Origin: an uncultured Clostridia bacterium
GTDB lineage: Bacteria; Bacillota; Clostridia; Christensenellales; UBA1242
NCBI GenBank assembly: GCA_947584415.1
Contig: CANPWN010000003.1
Location: 1-64,000 of the forward strand
Reading direction: 5' to 3'
DNA: 64,000 nt
A model generated the notes under the pieces. That model had not been told where the DNA came from. It worked only from the letters and a program-made list of their open reading frames with translations, and made no database searches. This document shows positions 5,066-11,521 of the stretch, one piece after another. The translations under genes were made by a program, and so were the position numbers. Numbering within the stretch: the stretch's first letter is position 1; each line of letters opens with the position of its first letter.

Positions 5066-7066
5066 TTAGGTTGCAGCAGTGAAACCTTTGTTTTTGAGAT
5101 ATGTTTCAACGGATGTCGTTGTGGCGTGATTGCCCGCCCACAAATTCCATCGTAATGCTGGGTAGCCTTCATTCAATGTCGCTCCGCATATCCATTGGCT
5201 GTCTGTAAAACCTGTGTAATAATTTTTTATAGTGGCAGTTTCAACCGTGTTTGACATATAGACACCAGCGTATGTATTGGTTGAAGACGTTGATTTATTC
5301 CAACACAAATCTGCAATGGTTGGAGCATAAACCGGGTGACCTTGAAATTGCACGTTCAGATTGTGGGTATATTGACATGTTCCTCTAAATGATGAATCCG
5401 TCACCGTAATTTTTGTGCCAGAGCCCTGACTTACAGCAAATATCGCAGTTGGCGTGTCAATTCCGCCGCTCACAACATTTCCAACAATTTCGACTTGGGA
5501 TATGTTTATATTATTATATCCTGAATCCATAACAAGCACGGCCACAGGCTGAGGGTCGCTTGAACCGCTCGTTGGCGTATTGTTGTTTGTCAGAGAACAA
5601 GTGATATACATATTTTTGAAGTTTGAGCTTATAAAAGTAGTCCCCGCAAATGAAATGGATTGGGTGTTATCACAAGATAAGTTCCAATTTAAAATATTTA
5701 AGTTTTGTATTGTCCCCCATATTTGGTCAATAAAATGTGCTGCATTGAAGTTTTGTATGATATGCCCCTGCCCATCAAATGTGCCACGGAACTCTTTGAT
5801 AGGTGTCCAAGTCTTGCCTGTGAAATCTATGTCCTTGTCAAGGAAAAATTTATCCGACGTGGAAAATGTCCCGCCCGCATTTGTGAAATCTGACATCGCT
5901 TGAAGCCCTGTGAAGTCGGTGATGTGATAACCATCTGTCTTTTTTGTTATGCCGGGATATTTGCTGAGATTGCTGTCAAAAGGCACAGCTGGATGTGGGT
6001 CATAGTTTACAGTGACCACTGGGCGTATTCCTGGAACAAGAGATGATGGGCTATAACTGTCAGAATCCCACACACCCTGAAAATTGATGGTTGCAAAGCC
6101 ACCATGAGTCCAATATGGAGCGGTAAGCTGGCCAAAAAAATTACAATATGCACCATTTCCAATAGCAAAATCAGAAACTATTCCCAGCGGCCCATAAAAA
6201 TCGGAACCACTCGTATACTGAATACTTAAAAAATAATCCGATTTAGACCCCATATCAAAGTATTCACTATCGAAGTCATCTAAACAACTCGCATTGCAAG
6301 ATACATGTGTCTCCAAAGTATCCTGCAAAGAATATATAAACATATCTAAAAACATATTGACATATTCATTATAACCTTCTTCGAAAGGAAGCCCTCCCAT
6401 CAAAATTGTGTTTGAGATAAGTTTGATGGTTGTTAATGAAGTGCAATTGTCTGGATTTGTGCCATCAATCACCCAAAATATGGCTGGCTCAACTTTAAAC
6501 CACTTTATATCTCCATCTGCTCCCTGGAATTCAAGTGCCCCACTCCCAGCATAAGCATGAGCAGCCCCATCGCTTTTGTTCAATTTTTGTGCTCCACGAA
6601 CATAAAAATCTCCATTGTATTCGTATTCCCACCAGAGATAACTATCATCAAAGCCATTCAAAATATAATCGCTTCCGGGATATCCCATACCGGTTTCAAT
6701 CATCTGTCCTGCCTGATATTCTGCCTCAAGTATGTCATTCATAGCATTTCCAACATAGGTCTGCGGATACCTGCCAAGATAAGTATAGTGATATGTGACA
6801 TTGTTAATCGTTTCCTTATACCAAGTCATGTTTGGTGGAAAGGTAGGCCAGCCGGCTGCGGTTATTGTGGATGGAGATGAAGGCGTTGCAAAAAGATTTG
6901 AAATGTTTGGAAAACAAAATAATGACAATATAAAAGCCAAGGCTAATGAAAAAATATTTTTCAAAAGGCTTGGCTTATTTTGAAAATGTGGATAACTTTT
7001 AGTTAGGCAGTAAGGTTGCCCCCCCCCCGGTGGGTAACAAAATGTTGCATTATTCCCTCGCTTCAA
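5066..7066 (-). CDS. Secreted surface protein with GLUG-/adhesin-like region; start ambiguous because of a G10 tract
   Basis: Signal-peptide-like LLKNIFSLALAFILSLFCFPNISNLFA; FRGTFDGQGHIIQNFN (GLUG-like). As given, only a TTG start at 7066 is in frame; the better ATG (7048-7050) is out of frame. Confidence 0.7.
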   Translation of the reverse strand: MKRGNNATFCYPPGGGQPYCLTKSYPHFQNKPSLLKNIFSLALAFILSLFCFPNISNLFATPSSPSTITAAGWPTFPPNMTWYKETINNVTYHYTYLGRYPQTYVGNAMNDILEAEYQAGQMIETGMGYPGSDYILNGFDDSYLWWEYEYNGDFYVRGAQKLNKSDGAAHAYAGSGALEFQGADGDIKWFKVEPAIFWVIDGTNPDNCTSLTTIKLISNTILMGGLPFEEGYNEYVNMFLDMFIYSLQDTLETHVSCNASCLDDFDSEYFDMGSKSDYFLSIQYTSGSDFYGPLGIVSDFAIGNGAYCNFFGQLTAPYWTHGGFATINFQGVWDSDSYSPSSLVPGIRPVVTVNYDPHPAVPFDSNLSKYPGITKKTDGYHITDFTGLQAMSDFTNAGGTFSTSDKFFLDKDIDFTGKTWTPIKEFRGTFDGQGHIIQNFNAAHFIDQIWGTIQNLNILNWNLSCDNTQSISFAGTTFISSNFKNMYITCSLTNNNTPTSGSSDPQPVAVLVMDSGYNNINISQVEIVGNVVSGGIDTPTAIFAVSQGSGTKITVTDSSFRGTCQYTHNLNVQFQGHPVYAPTIADLCWNKSTSSTNTYAGVYMSNTVETATIKNYYTGFTDSQWICGATLNEGYPALRWNLWAGNHATTTSVETYLKNKGFTAAT
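7019..7028 (-). repeat. G10 homopolymer (C10 on + strand) inside the 5' coding region
   Basis: Read directly: gttg-CCCCCCCCCC-ggtggg. Confidence 0.9.
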
Positions 7067-7168
7067 ATATCAAAATGTGGATATCTTTACATTATTATAA
7101 ACAAATTAAGTCAAAAAACAAAATAAATTGGAGGAAAATTCTATTTTTCTTGCAAAATTGCTAAAATA

Positions 7169-10597: not shown

Positions 10598-11521
10598 TTA
10601 TGGCGAAAGTTTTGTGATTACAATGCTGACAAGTTCGCTCGCAAAATAGGAGTTTGTGATTGTTTTTGTGATGTCTATGCCGCTTATGTATATGGAACTT
10701 TGATTTAAGTTGACAAGTTCATATTCTATGTTCGCATCCTCGACCACAAAAACACCTTGGCCGAACATTGTGCGCGGAACAGTGGCATTACTATACGAAT
10801 TCGCCGCAGCGAAAATTTGCTCAGAGCCGACAGGCCGAAAACCTATTGCCACAAAATCAGTCTTTTGGCTGAAAGGCACAGACGGAGTGACATAGGCGTT
10901 TGCAGAAAAGAAGATGTTATAAACCCCCGTGTCCGCAAATTTGATGGTGTTTTGGTCACTGTCAATTGAGATGAACTCACCGTAATTGGTCTCAAGTCTC
11001 ATAAGTGGCAGTCTGCCGCCACTTTGAATTTCTTTGCCATTTTCCGGAAAGCCAAGCGGGTCATTGTTGTAAGACGCAATAAAGGCAGATTTGATTTCAT
11101 AAGGGCCCGTTGCACCTCGTGGCCCGCGTGGACCTTCTGGACCAGCCGGACCAACCGGACCTGGAAGGCCGTCTAGCCCTGCGGGGCCGACATCTCCTCT
11201 GTCGCCTTTCTCTCCGGAATCACCCTTTTCTCCTTTCTCTCCGGGGTCACCCTTGTCACCTTTGTCACCTTTCGGACCTTGCGGGCCTGTAGGACCGGGC
11301 GGACCCGGAATTAAAGTTTCCTCAGTGGGTGTCACAACAGGCGTGGGCGGGGGCAGATTTGGAGTTGGGTCAAGCGGTGCAGGCGGAGTGAAAGGTTTTG
11401 GAAAAATTCCCTGTGCAGAGGATGATGATTTCTGCTCAAATCTAAGCGCTGAAAAATTGACAAAAGGTATGGCGCAGCCGCCACAAATTCTGCAAAATTT
11501 TGGCTTGCAATCACAAAACAT
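10598..11521 (-). CDS. Collagen-like protein with Cys-rich N-terminus and C-terminal globular domain
   Basis: About 23 contiguous Gly-X-Y triplets ([17 protein letters not shown]...GPY); N-term [16 protein letters not shown]. Confidence 0.85.

Follow-up and report, generated by a model that had tools for sequence, protein, structure and literature searches.

Probable translational phase variation of a dispersed secreted-protein family through leader G tracts in an uncultured Christensenellales bacterium

Phase variation by simple repeats has been best studied in cultured, mostly pathogenic bacteria. For example, Neisseria carries up to 11 dispersed opa genes with CTCTT repeats in the leader-peptide region (PMC3960869), while 29 poly-G/poly-C tracts are found in Campylobacter jejuni (PMC4965091). 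Among gut commensals, Bifidobacterium (B. breve) has pilus genes with a G tract at which slippage fuses a signal-peptide ORF with the main one (PMC9187656). Moreover, many G/C homopolymer tracts have been described in Gardnerella in the vicinity of surface-protein genes, frequently on their upstream side (PMC11287997). The switch type is thus already known. In the open-access literature, no paper on slipped-strand mispairing in Christensenellales was found, and broader searches returned none on the lineage; Christensenellales is therefore a lineage for which we found no earlier report in that literature.

Here we describe a G-tract leader on the minus strand of a 64,000-nucleotide stretch from an uncultured Clostridia bacterium of this order (the window hereafter denotes this whole stretch). 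The leader, which reads GCGAGGGAATAATGCAACATTTTGTTACCCACC-G10-CAACCTTACTGCCTAACTAAAAG on the minus strand, has an ATG (7050-7048) directly after GCGAGGGAATA, with GCGAGGG as its Shine-Dalgarno (SD) sequence, and ten G downstream in the context CCCACC-GGGGGGGGGG-CAACC (Table 1). The tract is the only G/C run of at least 8 in the window, where 0.27 overlapping 8-mers are expected by chance. A first-pass annotation had claimed that at G10 this well-placed ATG is out of frame, and that G11 or G8 would join it to the long frame of a secreted protein of more than 600 aa. Both claims held when the frames were recomputed: at G10 the frame of the ATG ends as MQHFVTHRGGGNLTA and a stop, while G8 or G11 would put it in frame with an ORF that stays open for 650 codons after the tract and includes a signal peptide. 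The window copy is therefore OFF in the assembly, and ON would need, for example, G11. In order, the ORF comprises the linker, the signal peptide, a WFKVEPxxWWxID region and a beta-helix-like C-terminal half with GTFDGQGH. The annotation had also taken TTG 7066 as the only in-frame start at G10; this is correct upstream of the tract, but an in-frame TTG downstream of it (6964-6962) had been overlooked, and TTG 7066 itself is an unlikely start because other leader copies are without it. Elsewhere in the window, a collagen-like repeat protein of 307 codons is encoded on the minus strand (10598-11521; Pfam Collagen, E=1.3e-14).

Table 1. Elements of the window leader, in order along the minus strand, and tract-bearing leader copies of the genome (contig:position)
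Feature	Position	Strand	Remarks
Promoter-like TTGTTT (7121-7116), 16 nt, TATAAT (7099-7094)	7094..7121	(-)	conserved in leader-copy alignment
Upstream TATCCACA box	7076..7083	(-)	present in 12/12 copies reaching that far
Shine-Dalgarno-like GCGAGGG	7055..7061	(-)	GCGAGG(G/A) in all class-1 leaders
ATG-frame OFF product at G10, MQHFVTHRGGGNLTA then stop	7003..7050	(-)	stop codon 7005-7003
G10 tract, proposed slippage site	7019..7028	(-)	G10-G12 in 13 copies
Secreted-protein ORF after tract	5066..7018 (frame 7018-5066)	(-)	650 codons + stop
Linker from tract to TTG, 54 nt (QPYCLTKSYPHFQNKPSL)	6965..7018	(-)	open only in the gene's frame
Downstream TTATCCACA box inside linker	6987..6995	(-)	TATCCACA in 11/13 copies
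Conserved hairpin over internal TTG	6935..6975	(-)	13 pairs kept in 12/12 copies
Internal in-frame TTG, rival start	6962..6964	(-)	conserved in 12 copies with the stretch; no SD
G10 copies	C3:7019 (window), C1:98596, C12:8096, C20:43, C1:27248		
G11 copies	C6:22937, C10:25992, C14:23434, C13:9110, C9:25362, C7:3210		
G12 copies	C14:25488, C1:47270		

The 200-bp window leader was searched against its own genome (903,074 bases, or 0.90 Mb, in 21 contigs; 99.4% complete; 16S not found in the assembly). Many further copies of the leader were present, the long matches being 79-94% identical, and 13 copies including that of the window bear a tract: five G10, six G11 and two G12. Genome-wide, 13 of the 14 G runs of at least 8 are inside copies of the leader. 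The fourteenth, an in-frame G9 (C1:35558-35566; G000, L182), lies in a gene resembling an isochorismatase-type hydrolase. Four further family genes start at contig ends within the leader (C13, C7, C5 and C16); the repeat therefore interrupts the assembly, and the family comprises no fewer than 16 members (at least 12 complete ones plus the four at contig ends). The location of all tracts on one strand was considered as a special feature and dismissed, as it is mostly a matter of contig orientation: on most contigs genes and GC skew are on the minus strand, and the only plus-strand copy (C16) is found where the skew is plus. Because the copies are related by descent, the 13 loci are not 13 independent proofs; more independent support is provided by the diverged leader classes, by the sister species G047 and by the paralogue sets of G065, G053 and G040 (see below).

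The reading frames around the tract follow one pattern. Each of the 12 copies that have a gene body keeps one and the same frame open for 391-977 codons after the tract, and both alternative frames reach a stop within 2-13 codons. Taken modulo 3, the length from the ATG to the end of the tract gives 0 (ON) for five copies and 1 and 2 for four copies each, so that five copies are ON and eight OFF; this 5/4/4 spread is close to the expectation for a freely slipping tract. Class-1 leaders have 22 nt from the ATG to the tract (23 in C13:9110), and those class-2 leaders that possess a body have 31 nt (30 in C20:43), so that the two classes are three codons apart; the spacing between the upstream TATCCACA box and the ATG is free to vary, from 16 to 26 nt. 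As in a translational contingency locus, a long tract between an SD-preceded ATG and a full ORF sets the frame in the 13 copies, and among the paralogues tract length differs, both ON and OFF states occur and the ORFs are intact. The phase variation that the first-pass annotation had suggested for one gene thus gains the support of 13 leader copies with tract lengths of 10, 11 and 12, all three phases and open bodies, and we consider it very probable that they represent translational phase variation of a dispersed secreted family by slipped-strand mispairing, with one switch per gene.

The annotation had cautioned that a sequencing error in the homopolymer would look the same. For the state of a single copy this is possible: homopolymers of such length are error-prone, the tract lengths are taken from one assembly of an uncultured MAG whose contigs break at the repeat, and tract lengths in database entries of B. 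breve differed from those in the population (PMC9187656). That all copies truly have an in-frame tract, with no switch at all, is nevertheless extremely unlikely, given that i) eight of the 13 copies would need to be wrong, and by different amounts; ii) the flanks, and not the tract alone, carry frame-changing differences (C13:9110 and C20:43); and iii) the same mixture of ON and OFF is seen in other assemblies. Since errors cannot yield the lengths, phases and open bodies of the 13 copies together, they are inadequate as an explanation. Nor do the OFF copies look like decaying members of an expanded family. Gene decay often sets in with a frameshift near the start, but the seven OFF bodies (391-977 codons each, ~4,440 codons in sum) have zero further stops or frameshifts, and the pattern is repeated by paralogues in other species; we therefore give decay next to no credence.

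Upstream of the promoter-like element the leader copies diverge in sequence, and a generic promoter consensus scan did not pick up the proposed promoter. The upstream TATCCACA box is DnaA-box-like if a T precedes it. Boxes resembling TTATCCACA, and similar to DnaA boxes, flank the start codon and tract on both sides in the leaders, and are also seen in 5' UTRs of unrelated genes of G047 (L135, L136). As a genome-wide feature TTATCCACA was discarded: there were 36 sites versus 7 for the reversed pattern, and the leader itself makes up most of the excess.

The linker between tract and TTG is 54 nt long in all 12 copies that share the stretch (that of C1:27248 differs). Its substitutions are not codon-like (pN/pS of 0.80, versus 0.39 for the signal peptide after the TTG), which lends no support to a conserved functional peptide, and the linker seems to be kept as a frame-preserving spacer rather than as a working peptide. 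Since codon-like evolution begins only at the TTG, this codon is a serious rival start. It would then initiate translation constitutively, with the ATG and the G tract left in the 5' leader and at most tuning expression via a short upstream ORF or translational coupling. A linker that does not evolve like constrained protein leaves room for such a start, as do the conservation of the TTG, its position precisely where the signal peptide begins (TTG-KNIFSLALAFILSLFCFP) and the resemblance of the linker to 5'-UTR sequence of other G047 genes. Several lines of evidence make it unlikely, however: i) the TTG has no SD and is buried in a hairpin kept in all 12 copies; ii) the linker keeps its length and stays open in the gene's frame, and the leader classes differ by whole codons; iii) a TTG start leaves unexplained why nearly all long G runs of the genome sit between an SD-preceded ATG and the frame of a gene. 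The hairpin has an outer stem (GCCAAG...CTTGGC) and an inner stem (TGAAAA...TTTTCA). In two copies one of its pairs is changed from GC to AU on both sides, and G-U pairs occur at two other positions; the covariation is modest, and one event may account for it. Taken whole, the window leader folds only a little better than its shuffles (z -1.14). Under switching at the tract, the hairpin over the TTG and the absent SD probably keep the OFF state tight.

Across 112 genomes of the genus, the leader DNA hardly occurs outside the species of the window. Close protein relatives were found in G047, G052 and G089; a scan of genome contigs with the family alignment found no relatives, and one with AsnRS put the organism among uncultured Clostridia MAGs (best match 76%, from sheep colon). 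On contig 8 of the sister species G047, a diverged leader with ATG, G9 and EPYSICDNCPQN... is followed by a 1,359-codon ORF that is out of frame with the ATG. In G065, G053 and G040, tracts of G8-G13 lie immediately behind the signal peptide of paralogous genes for secreted proteins or lipoproteins: six paralogues of G065 (L085-L090) are three in frame and three out, two of G053 (L144-L145) are a G13 in frame and a G8 out, and those of G040 (L094-L100) are one in frame and two out. Both these mixed states and the tract-bearing diverged leader of G047 support the switch.

Slippage can also take place at homopolymers while a gene is being expressed. Either RNA polymerase or the ribosome might accordingly slip on the G run, with all copies always making some in-frame protein, which would also account for the intact OFF bodies. 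We regard this as very unlikely, since the length variation across the copies and the paralogues of other species fits switching at the level of DNA, and since it is the tract length in the DNA that decides pilus production in B. breve (PMC9187656). Loss of mismatch repair as the cause of DNA-level slippage was rejected, as MutS was found in the window's own genome and in 40 other genomes of the genus; slippage may therefore be slower than in organisms without MutS.

In the proposed mechanism, each gene would be transcribed from the promoter common to the copies, and ribosomes would initiate at the ATG behind GCGAGGG. The tract of 10-12 nt, beginning 22 or 31 nt after the ATG, would then change its length by slipped-strand mispairing. 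One phase in three (G11 in the window copy) would place the ATG in frame with the linker, the signal peptide and the body, turning the gene ON, while the remaining two would terminate after about 15-18 codons, leaving it OFF, a state that the conserved hairpin over the TTG and the lack of an SD there would hold tight. Because each copy could switch alone, a clone would come to consist of cells that differ in the DUF6273/beta-helix-like proteins they make. We infer that the tracts slip in vivo and that the genes are expressed.

The 13 aligned bodies have a signal peptide in common, and the window member is 26-44% identical to the others. DUF6273 (PF19789), which in proteins of gut phages was modelled as resembling C-type lectins (PMC10743442), is above the Pfam gathering cut-off in seven of the 13 members; the window protein matched no Pfam or NCBIfam model, DUF6273 included. 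The earlier label of the protein as GLUG-like proved weak: the GLUG model of Pfam matched none of the 13 members at E up to 10, and beta-helix models matched them only at E 2-4, while in its favor the family profile matched PDB 3n6z (putative IgA1 protease) at E=1e-4 over the C-terminal half. A single-sequence structure prediction of the window protein was discarded (mean pLDDT 36). The family proteins are probably displayed on the surface, where they may bind in a lectin-like manner. At the protein level, leader and signal peptide are 75% identical (pS 0.27) and the bodies about 30% (pS 0.63-0.71); this makes the leader either more recent than the bodies or more homogenised, and it may have spread between genes or undergone gene conversion. 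Many genomes of the genus also contain open frames of ~6,000 aa that match the beta-helix-like half of the family (L110-L116 and others), putatively giant surface proteins.

The distribution of long G runs across the order is patchy, and in the genus they also occur in promoters. TTGACA-N-G7 or more-TAnAAT promoters were found in 46 of the 112 genomes (up to 22 per genome), and the reversed spacer pattern gave zero matches in the same 112. Spacer runs of G7-G11 are seen, for example, in G042 (L066-L084), G031, G064, G066 and G008. By a crude test of secreted or membrane character, confined to the loci read, 22 of 24 first ORFs downstream of G-spacer promoters have a charged-plus-hydrophobic N-terminus, versus 68 of 302 background genes of the window's own genome. 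Such spacer runs may serve phase variation at the level of transcription, or they may mark a class of G-rich promoters. In G039 (L043), G10 is followed by CAA-ATG, placing poly-G directly before the start codon, at the SD position. The case is evenly balanced for a wider reading, namely a genus-wide combinatorial switchboard for secreted proteins in these gut Clostridia with small genomes, with poly-G tracts in the promoter spacer or before or after the signal peptide, to which the species of the window would add one leader (promoter, SD-preceded ATG, G tract and hairpin-masked TTG) spread over, or homogenised between, diverged genes.

These patterns suggest that in an uncultured lineage of the gut, secreted proteins are likely controlled to a main part by poly-G phase variation. 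Clonal gut populations are predicted to be mosaics of surface types, which would affect their encounters with host immunity, phages and mucus. Moreover, gene callers will miss such tract-bearing genes, shorten them or assign them a wrong start.

The nearest working analogue is opa of Neisseria, which likewise consists of dispersed paralogous surface-protein genes with variable bodies, each gene carrying a separate repeat where its coding region begins and with the frame deciding between ON and OFF. The opa repeat is a pentamer within the signal peptide, whereas poly-G precedes the signal peptide here; proteins and bacterium are unrelated. The analogy is one of mechanism, which in our case is proposed from sequence. 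C. jejuni resembles the present genome in having many G tracts in a small genome and combinatorial ON/OFF states, but its loci mostly encode surface-modifying enzymes and are mutually unrelated, while here one gene family shares one leader. Gardnerella is also a Gram-positive-type commensal lineage with many tracts near surface-protein genes; it belongs to another phylum, and the text consulted describes no common leader family (PMC11287997). The tentaclins of gut phages share the DUF6273 domain with seven of the 13 family members, but they are phage proteins diversified by retroelements (PMC10743442), whereas the family described here consists of chromosomal secreted proteins. Finally, among gut commensals the pilus G tract of B. 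breve comes closest as an experimental precedent, and in the same way it separates an ORF with start and signal peptide from the main ORF: B. breve has two such pilus clusters, while here at least 13 copies of one leader are found, and its signal peptide precedes the tract, as in G065 and G053, whereas in the window the signal peptide follows it.
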